From Jatrophihabitans sp. GAS493 (GTDB taxonomy: Bacteria > Actinomycetota > Actinomycetes > Mycobacteriales > Jatrophihabitantaceae), in the NCBI RefSeq assembly GCF_900230215.1, contig NZ_LT907982.1, forward strand, positions 1,550,001 through 1,614,000: DNA of 64,000 bases, read 5' to 3'. The notes below the pieces were generated by a model. That model had not been told where the DNA came from and ran no database searches. It worked only from the letters and a program-made list of their open reading frames with translations. This document shows, one piece after another, positions 4,712 to 23,138 of the stretch. The number at the start of each line of letters is the position of its first letter. Positions within the stretch are counted from its first letter, which is position 1. Both the position numbers and the translations under genes were made by a program.

Positions 4712-6028
4712 CTAGCCGTGTTTGCGATGCAGGCCGAACCGGCGGATCGCGACGACGGAGCCCGCGATGATCAGCAGACCGGCAACGATTATCGGTACGT
4801 CCTCGTGCCATTGACGACGGGTGGTGGCAGCGGCGAGTAGTTCGCGTTCCTGAGTCGTGCGGGCCGCGATCGACGCGGCCGCGCTCTGGGTGGCCCGGAT
4901 GTCGTCCGGCGTCTGGACGGCTGCGTCCAGGTGCCCGACCGGTGCGACGGTGGCCGGCAGCGCGTAGCCCCAGTTGAAGAGCTTCGCCGCCTGCTGCCAC
5001 TGATCCAGCGGCCAGCGCTCCGCCCGCAGGAAGACCACGCCGAGCCGCCGGCCGTTGCGCTCGGTGGCCGCGACGTAGGTGTGCGAGGCGGCGTCGGTGT
5101 ACCCGATCTTCGATACCAGCGCCCCGGGGACCGCGTCCATGAAGGGGTTGCCCTGATTGGTGATCTGGAAGGGGGAGGTGGCCAGCGGGCCGACCTTCTC
5201 GGCCGGCATCTCGGCGGTGCGAGCCTGGTCGTAGGCCACGAAGCGCGGCATGTTGACCGCGGCTCGCAGGATCAGCGACATGTCGTACGCGCTGGTCAAT
5301 TGCTGCCAACCGTCCAGGCCGGATGGCGTCTGCACGAACGTGTCGTAGGCACCGAGACTCATCGCGGTCTTGTTCATCAGGTCGACCGTGTGCGCCACCC
5401 CGCCGGCCGCTTCGGCCAGTGCCGCCGCGGTGTCGTTGCCGGAGACGAGCAGCAGTCCCTTGAAGAGTTGGTCGATGGTGTACTTCCCGCCGGCCACGAT
5501 CCCCACCGCCGAGCCTTCGGCGTTGGCTGCCGACTGGCTCACCGTGACGGTTCGGGTGCCGGGCAGCAGGGGCAGCAGCGTGACGCTGGTGAGCGTCTTG
5601 AGAATGCTCGCCGGCTGGTAGCGACCGTGCGGGTCCCGGGCGGCCAGCACCGCACCGGTGTCGAGGTCGACCAGCGTCCAGGCCGCCGCGGTGATGCCGG
5701 CGGGGAGCGCGGGAGCTCCGGTCGGCTTCACCAGACCGCGGCTGTGCAACGCCGACCCGCCGACGAGTTCGCCGTTCGGGCCGATGCCGCCAGCCGGCGG
5801 GTGTGGGTCGGGGCTATCGGGTGAACGACCGCTGGCACTCGGGGTCGGGGCAGGCGGCGGCACGACGTGGCTGGAGCTGGATGGGGATGCCGAGGAGGAG
5901 GGCGCCGAGGAGGTCGGCGCGGCCGGTGCTCCGGAGTCGTTCAGGGGTGCGGCGTAGGCGATCCCGCAGTTCAGGAGCACCAGCGTCCCCGCCGTAGCGA
6001 GCGCCGCTCGCCGGGCAAGGTTGCGCAT
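4712..6028 (-). CDS. D-alanyl-D-alanine carboxypeptidase (peptidase S11)
   Basis: A penicillin-binding protein of the low-molecular-weight DacA/DacC type, 438 residues, that would trim the terminal D-Ala from peptidoglycan stem peptides outside the membrane. Residues 1-27 form a signal peptide, followed by a Ser/Pro-rich linker to about 75. The catalytic SxxK is S141-I-L-K144 and SGN is 196-198. The third motif reads K307-I-G309, not the usual KTG. A hydrophobic segment near 405-425 (PIIVAGLLIIAGSVVAI) then a basic tail indicate a C-terminal membrane anchor. It is divergent from the SCO4848-type gene, an arrangement I recall as conserved in Streptomyces. Confidence 0.92.
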   Translation of the reverse strand: MRNLARRAALATAGTLVLLNCGIAYAAPLNDSGAPAAPTSSAPSSSASPSSSSHVVPPPAPTPSASGRSPDSPDPHPPAGGIGPNGELVGGSALHSRGLVKPTGAPALPAGITAAAWTLVDLDTGAVLAARDPHGRYQPASILKTLTSVTLLPLLPGTRTVTVSQSAANAEGSAVGIVAGGKYTIDQLFKGLLLVSGNDTAAALAEAAGGVAHTVDLMNKTAMSLGAYDTFVQTPSGLDGWQQLTSAYDMSLILRAAVNMPRFVAYDQARTAEMPAEKVGPLATSPFQITNQGNPFMDAVPGALVSKIGYTDAASHTYVAATERNGRRLGVVFLRAERWPLDQWQQAAKLFNWGYALPATVAPVGHLDAAVQTPDDIRATQSAAASIAARTTQERELLAAATTRRQWHEDVPIIVAGLLIIAGSVVAIRRFGLHRKHG

Positions 6029-6121: not shown

Positions 6122-6355
6122 ATGCAACTCACACGCCGGGTCTCCTGGCTTCTGCTGGCCTTCGGCGTCTGGTCCTGGATCATCTGGCCGACCTTCCTCA
6201 AGAACATCTGGAAGGATCCGCGCTCCTGGAACGACGGGATGACTGCCTTCTTCACCGTGCACCTGCTGCTCACCGTGGCGTCGCTGGCCTTCGGCACCGC
6301 GATCGGGATCCTCGGCCTGCGTGGAGTTCGAGCGGCTTCGGCGGCAGTGCGCTAA
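6122..6355 (+). CDS. SCO4848-type small membrane protein
   Basis: A 77-residue protein with two predicted membrane helices (about 9-27 and 44-68) flanking the polar stretch WPTFLKNIWKDPRSWND. This matches the SCO4848 family of actinobacterial membrane proteins as I remember it. Function is unknown. It is divergent from the D,D-carboxypeptidase gene with 93 bases between the starts, so it may serve the same envelope process (inference). Its stop codon lies in the first copy of an 18-bp tandem repeat. Confidence 0.88.
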   Translation: MQLTRRVSWLLLAFGVWSWIIWPTFLKNIWKDPRSWNDGMTAFFTVHLLLTVASLAFGTAIGILGLRGVRAASAAVR

Positions 6356-6392
6356 CCGGCGGCAGTGCGCTAACCGGCGGCAGTGCGCTAAA
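6339..6392. repeat. Three tandem 18-bp repeats across convergent gene ends
   Basis: The unit cggcggcagtgcgctaac occurs at 6339-6356, 6357-6374 and 6375-6392 (last base a in the third). Every copy contains TAA on the plus strand and TAG on the minus strand. Copy 1 supplies the stop of the SCO4848-type gene and copy 3 the TAG stop of the HerA-like gene. Confidence 0.95.
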
Positions 6393-7803
6393 CCACCGGG
6401 ACCGAGACGTCCCGGCCGCCCTCCTGGGTTAGCCGAGCCCCCATCCGCACCAGCGCCGGGGCCGGCACGAAGCCGCCGGCGACGAGTGCCTCCCCCTGTA
6501 CGAAGTTGCGCGACATCTGTAGCAGCTGCGGGGGCACGAACCCGAAGATCTCGCCCAGCTCGGCCAGATCGGCCGTCGAGTTCATTCTCATCAACGCCAG
6601 GTTGTCGCACTGCGAGATCACCTGCGGGTGCAGCTTGGACGGGCGCTGGGTCGAGAGGAGAAGCCAGAGGCCGTACTTGCGGCCCTCGGCGGCGATCTGG
6701 ATCAGCCGCTCGGTGATGGCCGCCTGCACCGAGTTGGACGGCTGGGCCGGGCAGAGGTTGTGCGCCTCGTCGATCACGATCAGCGTCGGGGTGCGACTCT
6801 CCCGGTTGGCCCAGAGGCGCTCGACCAGCGCCAGACTCACCGCATGGGGCTCGAGCGGATGCTCAAAGCCGCCGAGGTCCATCACCGTGACCCGGGCCCC
6901 GGTGGCCACCACCTCCGATGCCGACGCGTTCTCGGCGGCGAACACCTCCCAGCTCGTCAAACCCAGGTTCTCGATCCGCTGCGCCAGCGCCCGATCGTCG
7001 GCGCCCCCGGCCCGCAGCCGCTCGATCATCTCGCCCAGGCTCTGCGCGGTGAGGTTGGCCATCATGTGAATGAAGAGGTTGTACTCACCGCGATCGACCA
7101 GCGGATCGAGCTGGAGCACCGCGGCCTGGGCCTGGCGCGGCAGCGTCATGAAGCGCATCCGCAGTGGCTGCCCGCCGCCGGCGTTCGAGCGAAGCACCCG
7201 CACCTCGGCCTCGCCCAGCCGTTGGGCGTCGGCGGCGGTGGTCTCGGGCCGGGTGTCACCCAGACGCACGAAGTCGGCGTTCGGGTCGAGAATGACCATC
7301 CGCAGATTGGTGTCGAGCAGCAGCTGTTCGAGGATCACGCCCAGCGCGTAGGTCTTGCCGGAGCCGCTCTGACCGCAGAGAAAGGTGTGCCGATTGAATC
7401 CGGCCGCCCGTAGCCGGGCCGCGACGTCGAGAGCCCCGTTGCGCCAGGTTCCGATCGTCATCCCGGCGCCGCTGTCGCGCTGCAGGGCCTCGATCACGGC
7501 GGCGTCGGCCGGGACAACGGTGGCCGCGGCGAAGGGGCGCCGCCCGGAGCGCCGGGGCACGCCGTCGGCGTCGAGCAGGCCGATGACCGAGCCTGCGCTG
7601 ATCACCGCGGTGCCGGTGGATTCAGGAGCCTGCTCGAGGACCTGGCCCAGGAAACTCGCCGAATCCGGTGTCTGGAGCAGTATCAGGTCGCCGAGCAGCA
7701 GCGCGTCGTCGCCTCCGCGATAGGTGAAGGTACGCCCGTCGGTGGAGACGGCGACAGGGGATGTAGTGAGTGGATCGGCGGGTGCGTCAGCGTTGGCAGT
7801 CAC
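6388..7803 (-). CDS. HerA-like (DUF87) ATPase
   Basis: A 471-residue ATPase of the HerA/FtsK superfamily. An N-terminal β-rich region (about 1-90, HAS-barrel-like) precedes Walker A GQSGSGKTYALG near residue 144. Walker B is TLIVIDEAHNLCP in the 340s, followed by STQRPSKLHPQVISQCDNLALMRMNS with a conserved sensor and arginine region. HerA proteins form hexameric DNA translocases that usually work with the nuclease NurA in end resection; other DUF87 proteins act in defence or plasmid transfer. No nuclease gene adjoins it here, so partner and substrate are unknown. It is divergent from the SulP gene. Confidence 0.85.
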   Translation of the reverse strand: MTANADAPADPLTTSPVAVSTDGRTFTYRGGDDALLLGDLILLQTPDSASFLGQVLEQAPESTGTAVISAGSVIGLLDADGVPRRSGRRPFAAATVVPADAAVIEALQRDSGAGMTIGTWRNGALDVAARLRAAGFNRHTFLCGQSGSGKTYALGVILEQLLLDTNLRMVILDPNADFVRLGDTRPETTAADAQRLGEAEVRVLRSNAGGGQPLRMRFMTLPRQAQAAVLQLDPLVDRGEYNLFIHMMANLTAQSLGEMIERLRAGGADDRALAQRIENLGLTSWEVFAAENASASEVVATGARVTVMDLGGFEHPLEPHAVSLALVERLWANRESRTPTLIVIDEAHNLCPAQPSNSVQAAITERLIQIAAEGRKYGLWLLLSTQRPSKLHPQVISQCDNLALMRMNSTADLAELGEIFGFVPPQLLQMSRNFVQGEALVAGGFVPAPALVRMGARLTQEGGRDVSVPVV

Positions 7804-19698: not shown

Positions 19699-19789
19699 TT
19701 TCGCACGCAAAGCAGCGGCGACGCCTGCCGCGATGGCGTCACGAGCGACAGCGACACAAGCGGCAGCGACGCGTGCCGCGAGTTCGGCG

Positions 19790-21694
19790 TTAGCCGGGGC
19801 TGAACGGCTCCACCATCTCCAGCTGCTCGATCTTCTCCAGCAGCTCGGCCGTACTACCGGTCTCGCCCAACCGCGGGAAGATCCGCTCGACACTGTTGCT
19901 GTGCGCATCCGGGTTCATGTCGGTCATGGCGTCCACGGCGAGGGTGACGTGATACCCGTGCTCGTGGGCCTGGCGGGCCGTCGACTCCACGCCGGCGCTG
20001 GTCGAAACGCCAACGATGACGACCTGGGTGACGCCCTTCCCGCGCAGGTAGGCGTTCAGGTCGGTGTTGGTGAAGGCGCCCCAGGTGCGCTTGGTGACGA
20101 GGTGATCATCCGGCTGCTGGTTCAGCTCGGCGACGAGCTCGGCCCAGTCCGCCGGGCGCTGCGTCGTCCGTGGGGGCGTCTGGGTGCGTCCGGGCGCTCC
20201 GCCATCCGCGTTGACGAGCACGACCGGGAGCCGGCGGGCACGGAACTGCTCGATCAGCGCGGTGGCGTTCCTCAGCACACCGTCCATCGGATGGACGGTG
20301 GGCAGACCCACGATCCCCTTCTGCAGGTCGATCACGATCAGGGCCGTGTGGTCGTCCAACGTTGTCACGCTCATGAGAGGGCCTCCTTTATTGATTGGTG
20401 ATTCTGCTGATCCCGCGGCTAGCAGATCAGGCTCGTGAAGCTGAACCCGTAGCCGCCAGCCGTCGAGGTGCAGCCGTAGTTGCTGGTATTTGACCAGGTA
20501 GTGGGCCCCGACGATCGCCGCCGCGAAACCGCCGGCCGCGCCGATGCTGACGCCCCAACGCGGACCGTAGACGTCGGTGACCCAGCCGACGATCGGGGCA
20601 CCGATCGGGGTTGCCCCGAGGGTGACGGCGAGCAGGATCGCGATGACCCGTCCCCGCATGGCCGGTTCGGTGGCCAGTTGGACGGTGCTGATGGCGGTTG
20701 TGGTGAGGGTCTGGGAGGCGACGCCGACCACGATCAATGCCAGTGAAAAGAATAGGAAAGTGGGGGCGACCGCCGCCACCGCGAGCCCGACGCCGAAGAG
20801 CGCCGAGCCCAGGAAGAGCAGGGCGATCCGCGGTCGGGCGCGACGGGCGGCAAGCAGTGCCCCGGCCACCGACCCGATCGCCATCGTCGAGGTCACCAGC
20901 CCGTAGGCACCGGCGCCGGCGTGGAACACGCCGACCGTCATGGTCGATAGAAACAAAGGGAAATTGAGCCCGAAGGTGCCGATCAGGAAGAGCATCAACA
21001 GGATCGCCTTGAGGTCCGGGCGCCCGTTGACGTAGCGGAATCCGTCGACGAAGCTGCCGGGGGTCCATCGTTGCCGGGCCGATCGGTGCAGCTCGTTGCG
21101 CCGCAGCATCGCCAGGCTGGTCAAGACCGCCGCGAAGGTGACGGCATTGATCAGGAAGACCCACCCCGAGCCGACGGCCGCGATCAGCAGCCCGGCGATC
21201 GACGGGCCGATCAGCCGGGCGACATTGAAGGAGGTGGAGTTCAGCCCGACCGCGTTGGAGAGGTTGGGGGCATCGACGAGTTCGGCCACGAAGGTCTGCC
21301 GGGCCGGCGCGTCGAAGGCGGTTGCCACGCCCAGTAGAAGGGCGAAGACATAGACCTGCCAGAGCTGGACGGCGCCGCTGACGGTCAGTAGGCCGAGGCC
21401 GAGGGCGAGCAGTCCCATCGCGGCTTGGGTGCCCATCACGAGTCGACGGCGGTCGAGGTGATCGGCGGCCAGCCCGGTGAGCGGCAGGAGCAGCAACTGG
21501 GGGGCGAACTGCAGGGCCAGCACGATGCCGACCGAGGTCGCGCTGTGCTGGGTCAGCTGGGTGAGGACCAGCCAGTCCTGCGCGGTTCGCTGCATCCAGG
21601 TGCCGACGTTGGAGACGATGGCCCCGATCGCCCACAGCCGATAGTTGTAGATCCGCAGCGAGCGGAACGTTCCGTCGTTCAGCGAATCCGGCAT
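19790..21694 (-). CDS. MFS transporter in-frame with an isochorismatase-like hydrolase
   Basis: One uninterrupted frame of 634 codons encodes two proteins' worth of sequence. Residues 1 to about 415 are an MFS permease of the Bcr/enterobactin-exporter-like type (about 12 helices; RSLRIYNYRLWAIGAIVSNVGTWMQRTAQDW at the start, DAPARQTFVAEL in helix 4-5). Residues 441-634 are an isochorismatase-fold hydrolase with D16 and K95 (own numbering) in place, but Gly128 where cysteine hydrolases have the nucleophile. Codon 441 is an ATG behind a perfect ribosome site, so a free hydrolase is probably also made from 20374. It follows the MarR gene with a one-base overlap. Confidence 0.85.
   Translation of the reverse strand: MPDSLNDGTFRSLRIYNYRLWAIGAIVSNVGTWMQRTAQDWLVLTQLTQHSATSVGIVLALQFAPQLLLLPLTGLAADHLDRRRLVMGTQAAMGLLALGLGLLTVSGAVQLWQVYVFALLLGVATAFDAPARQTFVAELVDAPNLSNAVGLNSTSFNVARLIGPSIAGLLIAAVGSGWVFLINAVTFAAVLTSLAMLRRNELHRSARQRWTPGSFVDGFRYVNGRPDLKAILLMLFLIGTFGLNFPLFLSTMTVGVFHAGAGAYGLVTSTMAIGSVAGALLAARRARPRIALLFLGSALFGVGLAVAAVAPTFLFFSLALIVVGVASQTLTTTAISTVQLATEPAMRGRVIAILLAVTLGATPIGAPIVGWVTDVYGPRWGVSIGAAGGFAAAIVGAHYLVKYQQLRLHLDGWRLRVQLHEPDLLAAGSAESPINKGGPLMSVTTLDDHTALIVIDLQKGIVGLPTVHPMDGVLRNATALIEQFRARRLPVVLVNADGGAPGRTQTPPRTTQRPADWAELVAELNQQPDDHLVTKRTWGAFTNTDLNAYLRGKGVTQVVIVGVSTSAGVESTARQAHEHGYHVTLAVDAMTDMNPDAHSNSVERIFPRLGETGSTAELLEKIEQLEMVEPFSPG
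20372..20389 (-). promoter_or_regulatory. Internal ribosome-binding site and start for the hydrolase domain
   Basis: Read on the minus strand, AAAGGAGGC (20381-20389) precedes ATG (20374-20372) by six bases. This is the best Shine-Dalgarno match I see in the window. It sits between the MFS and isochorismatase-like parts of the same open frame, and starting here gives a standard-length 194-residue hydrolase. Confidence 0.75.
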
Positions 21695-22140
21695 CAGAGA
21701 TTCTGGGCGAGGCGTTCCAGCAGCGGGGCCGCGGCCATCAGCTGGGTGAGCTCAGTTGGGGTGAATCCGTTGGAGAGCGCCTGGGCCAGCTGTTCGACGC
21801 GCGCGCTGCGGCGGGTGCGGAGTACCTCCAGCCCGGCGTCGGTCGGGGTCAGCAGTACGCGCCGGCCATCGTCGGGGTCGGCGCTGCGCTGGACCAGACC
21901 GCGGGCCTCCAATGCGGCCAGCGTCGCCCCCATCGACTGCGGGCTGATCTGCTCGGTGCGGGCCAGCGCGGCTGAGGTCGTCGGCCCGCCGCGGTCCAGC
22001 CGGGTGAGCGCGGAGGTCTCGGGGAGGGTTAGCTCACCGTCGATCGGCGCCTGGCGCAGCCGGCGACGCAGCAGACTAACGCTGACCAGGAGCGCCCCGG
22101 CGACCCGCGAGACGTCAGGCTCATTCGGAAAGCTCGGCAT
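21694..22140 (-). CDS. MarR family transcriptional regulator
   Basis: A 148-residue winged-helix regulator. LPETSALTRLDRGGPTTSAALARTEQISPQSMGATLAALEARGLVQRSADPDDGRRVLLTPTDAG is the MarR core, with the recognition helix and the DxR wing. It overlaps the MFS gene by one base and so is the first gene of that operon. A perfect inverted repeat six bases upstream of its ATG suggests autoregulation and control of the pump/hydrolase. Confidence 0.9.
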   Translation of the reverse strand: MPSFPNEPDVSRVAGALLVSVSLLRRRLRQAPIDGELTLPETSALTRLDRGGPTTSAALARTEQISPQSMGATLAALEARGLVQRSADPDDGRRVLLTPTDAGLEVLRTRRSARVEQLAQALSNGFTPTELTQLMAAAPLLERLAQNL

Positions 22141-22190: not shown

Positions 22191-23138
22191 TCAGCGAGCG
22201 GCGTTCTTGATGAACTCGTCGGGCAGCGGAGACTGCCGGTCGCCGGCGTAGTAGGCGCCGCGGACGTGGCGGCGGGTGGTGTCGTCGTCGGTGGCCCGGG
22301 CCGCGGAGTGCCAGAGGTAGCAGTCGTGCAGGATCACGTCGCCGACCTCGGCGATGACCGGCACCTCGCCCGGGATCGCCTCGAAGGCCAGCGGCATCTC
22401 GAAGGGCGGTGGCGTTGCCGTGTAGCCGCCGGCCGGCTGGGCGGTCGGCGGCACGGCCACATTGTTGATGTTGCGGTATGGAGCCGGAGTGGCCCAGTTG
22501 TGGCTGCCCGGAACGACCCGCAGGAACCCGTTGGCCGGGCTCGTCGCGTCGAGATGGATGGTGAAGGCGGTGGAGGGCCAGAGGGTCTGGCTCGGCCCGG
22601 CCTGCCAGTCCGAGTGCCAGCCGATCCGGCTGTAGCCCGACTCGCGTCCCGGGCGGGCGTCCTGATAGACGACGCCGAACTGCTGGTCGTCGCGCAGCCA
22701 GGCGCTGACGCCGAGCACCCGGTGCAGCGCGGCCACCAGGCTCGGGCTGGTGATCGCCGCGCGCACGGCCGGCGACAGCTCATTGATGAACTCGACGTAG
22801 TTGGCGAAGGGTTCGGCCTTGGCTGGATCCTCGAGATAGGCGTCTTTCCGTAACGCCGCGGGGAGAAACCCCTCTCTCCGGAACCTCTCTCTCCGGAACC
22901 CCTCGTCTAGGAACACGGTGGAGCCGTACCGCTGCGGTAAGTCACCGGCGACGACCTGGCGCTGGGCTGTAGCGCACTCGGCCTGCATCCGCTCAAGTAG
23001 CTCCGGGCGGTAGACGTCGCGCAGGATGACGAAGCCGTTCTCCCGGTAACAGAGCTCCAGCGCGTCCAGGGTGGCGTCGCTGAAGATGCCGGCAGAGGCG
23101 GTAAATACGGCGGTTTCGGTGGCTGGGCGGATCAGCAT
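22191..23138 (-). CDS. Phytanoyl-CoA dioxygenase (PhyH) family protein
   Basis: A 315-residue non-haem Fe(II)/2-oxoglutarate oxygenase. The facial triad is visible as GWHSDW (H-x-D) and the distal histidine in ILHDCYLWHSAARA. ENGFVILRDVY at the N-terminus is typical of PhyH. The substrate is unknown; members hydroxylate lipids, ectoine or natural products. Residues around 76-90 (EGFRRERFRREGF) come from a short 15-bp tandem duplication. It reads toward the MarR gene but is separated from it by the operator, so it is probably a separate unit. Confidence 0.87.
   Translation of the reverse strand: MLIRPATETAVFTASAGIFSDATLDALELCYRENGFVILRDVYRPELLERMQAECATAQRQVVAGDLPQRYGSTVFLDEGFRRERFRREGFLPAALRKDAYLEDPAKAEPFANYVEFINELSPAVRAAITSPSLVAALHRVLGVSAWLRDDQQFGVVYQDARPGRESGYSRIGWHSDWQAGPSQTLWPSTAFTIHLDATSPANGFLRVVPGSHNWATPAPYRNINNVAVPPTAQPAGGYTATPPPFEMPLAFEAIPGEVPVIAEVGDVILHDCYLWHSAARATDDDTTRRHVRGAYYAGDRQSPLPDEFIKNAAR

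Follow-up and report, generated by a model that had tools for sequence, protein, structure and literature searches.

A one-base spacer change that probably joined an MFS pump and a YecD-like hydrolase in one reading frame of Jatrophihabitans sp. GAS493

When a membrane pump and a hydrolase share one reading frame, is this a protein that selection has kept, or two genes that have lost the boundary between them? The question is raised by a locus on the minus strand of a window of 64,000 nucleotides (the whole stretch of DNA analysed here, contig NZ_LT907982.1, positions 1,550,001 to 1,614,000) from the actinomycete Jatrophihabitans sp. GAS493. The frame at 19790..21694(-) starts with ATG and runs for 634 residues with zero internal stops. 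Pfam matches MFS_3 at residues 9-399 (E 4e-47) and then Isochorismatase at residues 450-617 (E 9.9e-43), in agreement with an earlier note on this DNA, which had described one frame over both proteins. Clear homologues exist for each half, and GC content by codon position follows in each the pattern typical of genes, so chance does not account for the open frame.

The pump part of the frame, residues 1-440, lies at 20375..21694(-) and includes a poorly conserved tail (residues 401-440) that now forms the linker. The hydrolase occupies 19790..20374(-), and its own ATG at 20374 gives a product of 194 residues, the length claimed earlier. The cassette opens, upstream of both, with a gene for a MarR-family regulator (21694..22140(-), Pfam MarR E 8e-13). 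The TGA of this gene overlaps the ATG of the pump by one base (TGATG), and its score against the NCBIfam Rv0880 family, 84.3 bits, is below the cut-off of 220. For either half of the fusion, no NCBIfam model in our table reaches its curated cut-off.

By its profile match the pump half belongs to the MFS_3 efflux pumps (Pfam PF05977; 161.3 bits against a cut-off of 27, profile positions 3-393 of 524). The earlier description of a complete 12-helix protein owes more to this family coverage than to a confident helix count: in a Kyte-Doolittle scan the hydrophobic stretches are merged and reach residue 402, and in the AlphaFold model the pump part is helical with its second half poorly resolved. 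For the whole fusion the model has a mean pLDDT of 69.3 and a pTM of 0.44. The hydrolase is mostly confident; low-confidence stretches are found at 239-338 and 376-440, and the tail has pLDDT values mostly of 26-38. Alignments with the H+ antiporter types EntS and TIGR00900 cover most of both profiles, with scores below the curated cut-offs (99.2 against 324 for EntS, 169.6 against 319.6 for TIGR00900). We therefore place the pump in neither subfamily, and for the same reason its substrate is not assignable.

The Isochorismatase domain of the hydrolase half is full-length (profile 1-175 of 175). Its best solved relatives are PDB 3TXY (E 3.3e-39) and E. coli YecD, PDB 1J2R (E 3.1e-29); both are free proteins in the structures, while the hydrolase of the window has a pump in frame before it. 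Against the NCBIfam equivalog NF008517 (PRK11440), which we take to be YecD, it scores 130.8 bits, under the cut-off of 195, and by this measure it is YecD-like and not YecD itself. The triad positions hold Asp16, Lys95 and Gly128, and Asp, Lys and Gly are found there in all 100 loci examined (L032-L131, window and sister genome included). E. coli YecD has the same triad (Asp25-Lys112-Gly145), and its wild type is without gamma-lactamase activity, as stated in an excerpt of PMC12553813. A cysteine hydrolase such as a nicotinamidase, RutB or a biuret hydrolase is rejected, since Gly128 stands where the nucleophilic Cys is needed. With this residue, and in a YecD-like group, the earlier idea that the compound exported is also the one hydrolysed, with the two steps coupled, is unsupported.

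At the junction of the two halves the minus strand reads AAAGGAGGC CCTCTC ATG, that is, a ribosome-binding site with a spacer of six bases (AAAGGAGGC-N6) at 20375..20389(-). The motif AAGGAGG is present in nine copies on the two strands of the window, and the junction copy is the only one with an ATG within the next 15 nt; GTG follows two others. To call it the best ribosome site in the window, as had been done, is thus fair. Strong local RNA structure over the internal start was not found in the window (z 0.69) or in the sister genome (z -1.07).

The sister is the only other genome of the genus among the two in the collection (a contig of 4,228,602 bases, against 4,879,921 bases in one contig for the genome of the window); an excerpt of PMC7498423 gives 4.880 Mb for GAS493, 4.229 Mb for MT45 and 84% ANI. 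The sister locus has MarR, pump and hydrolase in the same order and is syntenic on both sides, with identities to the window of 89% for the MFS protein and 83% for the hydrolase. Here the pump is a protein of 435 residues from a GTG start that ends in a TGA at 4039692, and the hydrolase starts with an ATG at 4039691, giving an ATGA overlap. A stop between the domains, which the earlier note had proposed to look for in sister species, is thus found in this one.

In the nucleotide alignment of the two species there is a single gap in the spacer, where the window is one base longer. The window still has the TGA, at +1 of the hydrolase start, and 42 nt upstream another stop closes the frame that contains it; at the same distance upstream the sister has a stop in the hydrolase frame. 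From these closures it follows that the net frame shift between the two species took place inside the 42 nt that precede the ATG of the hydrolase. A mutated stop codon is rejected as the cause, since the TGA persists one base out of frame. The suggestion that two genes were joined recently is borne out by the sister; what joined them, though, is a spacer that differs by one base, and not the loss of a stop.

The domains are better conserved than what lies between them. Over pump residues 1-400 the two species agree in 364 of 395 aligned residues, and dN/dS is 0.071, compared with 0.145 for the hydrolase. In the tail only 18 of 35 aligned residues are identical, and dN/dS is about 0.30, a value from few sites. 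The sister also retains the ribosome site, as CAAGGAGA-ACCCGC-ATG. Its ATGA junction is of the type of the coupled pairs with a -4 overlap, while the junction of the window is not; in an excerpt of PMC10666635 such short overlaps are among the commonest and are required for coupling. Since ribosomes in the window would pass this stop, termination-reinitiation presumably cannot operate there and the hydrolase start would need new initiation at its ribosome site.

Other differences were seen by eye near the locus. The hydrolase gene and an adenosine deaminase gene converge on positions 19715-19785, a GC-rich repetitive stretch with inverted-repeat character, at which the sister alignment shows a gap. 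A PhyH-family protein is encoded upstream of the MarR gene (22191-23138), and a short segment of it, RRERFRREGF..., is seemingly absent from the sister copy.

We consider it likely that two ancestral coupled genes were turned by a one-base indel in the spacer into a 634-residue fusion, most likely together with a free 194-residue hydrolase. Before the two species diverged, pump and hydrolase would have been separate and translationally coupled, with an ATGA overlap and a Shine-Dalgarno site for the hydrolase itself. In the lineage of the window the spacer would then have changed by one net base. Ribosomes that finish the pump at ATGA in the sister would be positioned to restart on the hydrolase, helped by the Shine-Dalgarno site; in the window the pump ribosome would miss an in-frame TGA and read on into the hydrolase. 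In the first product, the fusion, a flexible tail would carry the hydrolase at the cytoplasmic side; the second would be the free hydrolase, made by new initiation at AAAGGAGG.

On this reading the fusion is specific to one lineage, arose by one indel and is probably recent. The sister has the ribosome site too, which makes the dual products plausible, and for the same reason the free hydrolase is probably still made. As the site is common to both species, we see in it a remnant of the time when the genes were two, rather than a sign of an evolved dual-product design. With one close relative in the collection, the direction of change is judged from more distant loci, where the genes are separate and in reverse order (hydrolase before pump). 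This direction, like the dual products, the cytoplasmic side and any benefit, is something we infer, and no benefit is needed to explain the fusion.

A single-base assembly error at the junction would give the same appearance. It could be that the assembly, made from long reads only, has a spurious base in the spacer and that the organism truly has two genes with an ATGA overlap, as in the sister. The entire difference is one base, and the TGA is still in place one base out of frame. Raw errors of PacBio RS reads are mostly indels. Both GAS493 and MT45 were assembled from PacBio RS reads alone, according to an excerpt of PMC7498423, and in a part of PMC3711429 singleton frame transitions are described as likely indel mutations or sequencing errors, with errors preferred for one class. 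Against this stands the coverage of the HGAP assemblies, reported in the same excerpt of PMC7498423 as 156x for GAS493 (70x for MT45). Further, the spacer is without a long homopolymer (CCC at most), and one-base gaps relative to the sister are found, by a rough count, about 4.1 times per kb outside gene-like ORFs and 1.1 times inside them, so that a real indel in the spacer would be ordinary.

How often frames break elsewhere was assessed in a scan of about 360 kb per genome, in which a frame is gene-like if its codon-position GC has the order third > first > second. Among 149 orthologous ORFs (58,936 residues) the fusion is the sole frame split that is gene-like on both sides, one of seven split rows; in the reverse comparison, starting from 140 ORFs of the sister (55,368 residues), none of two rows is. 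This lone break argues against a general sequencing error. No other such break is found in about 177 kb, and by the rule of three frame-breaking errors would then be rarer than about 1 per 59 kb, with error odds of about 0.0007 for the stretch of 42 nt. A real spacer indel thus appears much more likely than an error, although the site was picked for its oddness. On the whole we regard an assembly error as unlikely.

The choice of filter has an influence on the number of rows. With the longest frames and no codon filter there are 9 break rows from the genome of the window and 10 from the sister; with the codon-position filter (89 and 81 ORFs) there are 5 and 4, and the fusion alone is gene-like on both sides. 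A looser filter gives 22 and 18 rows, mostly of short frames, which we take as shadow frames split by stops. The rough gap count also has, inside gene-like ORFs, 272 gaps with a length that is not a multiple of three; given the frame-break scan these are read as alignment noise. One doubtful row from the reverse comparison (B_186304) has its break ahead of the point where a succinate dehydrogenase cytochrome subunit probably starts. Upstream of that gene (L153 of the sister, 6304-6942) about 46 codons are conserved, in a frame that differs between the species.

The two genes are found together in many other bacteria. When GTDB contigs were scanned with the hydrolase, 98 relatives came up and 80 of them were retained. 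Window, sister and three plasmid loci were added to these, and the resulting 85 loci were sorted by gene order. The usual order is MarR-hydrolase-MFS (69 loci); four loci have hydrolase-MFS, three MarR-hydrolase and seven the hydrolase alone, while MarR-MFS-hydrolase is found in the window and its sister only. The families are the same and on one strand, with full-length MFS matches about 57-71% and hydrolases about 51-72% identical to those of the window; examples are Variovorax paradoxus VAI-C (INQ48_36655/36660/36665) and loci of Paraburkholderia, Dyella, Rhodanobacter and Edaphobacter. The MarR gene is linked to pump and hydrolase in 71 of the 85 loci, from several phyla, and this linkage supports that the three share a pathway or response. 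Within the open-licence PMC literature (titles and abstract openings) no paper was found on an MFS-isochorismatase fusion or on a MarR / YecD-like / MFS cassette.

Between hydrolase and MFS, loci of Dyella, Rhodanobacter, Edaphobacter, Bradyrhizobium and others have a small hydrophobic protein of about 110 residues (...NA-PH-VSG-MG-PFQSPFA...; L053, L055, L057, L058, L064, L065, L073, L079 and L093, at about 5480-6020). The overlapping genes of the window leave no space for it.

Within the loci examined the fused state is limited to the window: it is seen in 1 of the 75 loci that carry both genes, and the other 74 are unfused. No other single-frame match over residues 1-634 was found in searches of the class (296 genomes, E 1e-120), the phylum (396 genomes, 1e-130) and the genus (2 genomes, 1e-100), at the stricter of which limits (1e-120 and 1e-130) a diverged fusion could score too low. 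Among at least 61 relatives listed at E 1e-3 the single-frame match is to the own genome only. These four sets overlap, and three or four candidates per genome were scored for class and phylum. In plasmids 626 records match, and the six with at least 80% query coverage all do so in two pieces.

This distribution bears on the reading in which the protein is a selected bifunctional transporter-enzyme, where the fusion is maintained to keep the hydrolase at the pump and the internal start supplies free subunits. Both domains are intact, with a flexible tail between them and a strong internal ribosome site, and pump and hydrolase are close together on one strand in all 75 loci with both. However, the fusion is present in one genome, and the genes are two in the sister and in the other 73 loci examined. 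Conservation is lowest in the linker, and the ribosome site occurs in the unfused sister too. We find this reading very unlikely, and it is quite improbable that selection keeps a natural YecD-like enzyme tethered to the membrane by an MFS pump, with a free form made by internal initiation. That the fusion impairs pump or enzyme and the locus is in early decay, as might be if fusing a soluble oligomeric enzyme to a pump disturbed both, is highly improbable given the low dN/dS of both halves and that neither domain is otherwise disrupted.

Relatives of the hydrolase bear on the origin of the cassette. A search with the hydrolase only finds a relative at E 1e-40 or better in 19 of 397 genomes of the order, and among the 20 loci from this search the pump is within the flanks (up to 1.5 kb) at the window and sister alone. 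In a tree of the hydrolase (midpoint root; 95 of 100 rows, five being left out for a stop in the aligned stretch; bootstrap not settled) window and sister belong to a group of 79 rows (support 99/96), apart from 16 homologues of their own order. Most of the group is from Pseudomonadota, and the rest includes some Acidobacteriota, a Chloroflexota MAG, an Arthrobacter and others; its 77 ungrouped rows were chosen by similarity to the window protein, so closeness to the window is partly built in. This placement suggests, as a lead and not as proof, that the cassette was acquired horizontally before the two species split and that its gene order was altered.

The locus does not present a new kind of system. 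It is a small change in an ordinary, widely conserved gene set and a modest curiosity. What it offers is a clean, probably young case in which a one-base change between coupled operon genes yields a multidomain protein, with the unfused state seen in a sister and the ribosome site retained. Beyond this, it points to a MarR / YecD-like / MFS cassette that is widespread.
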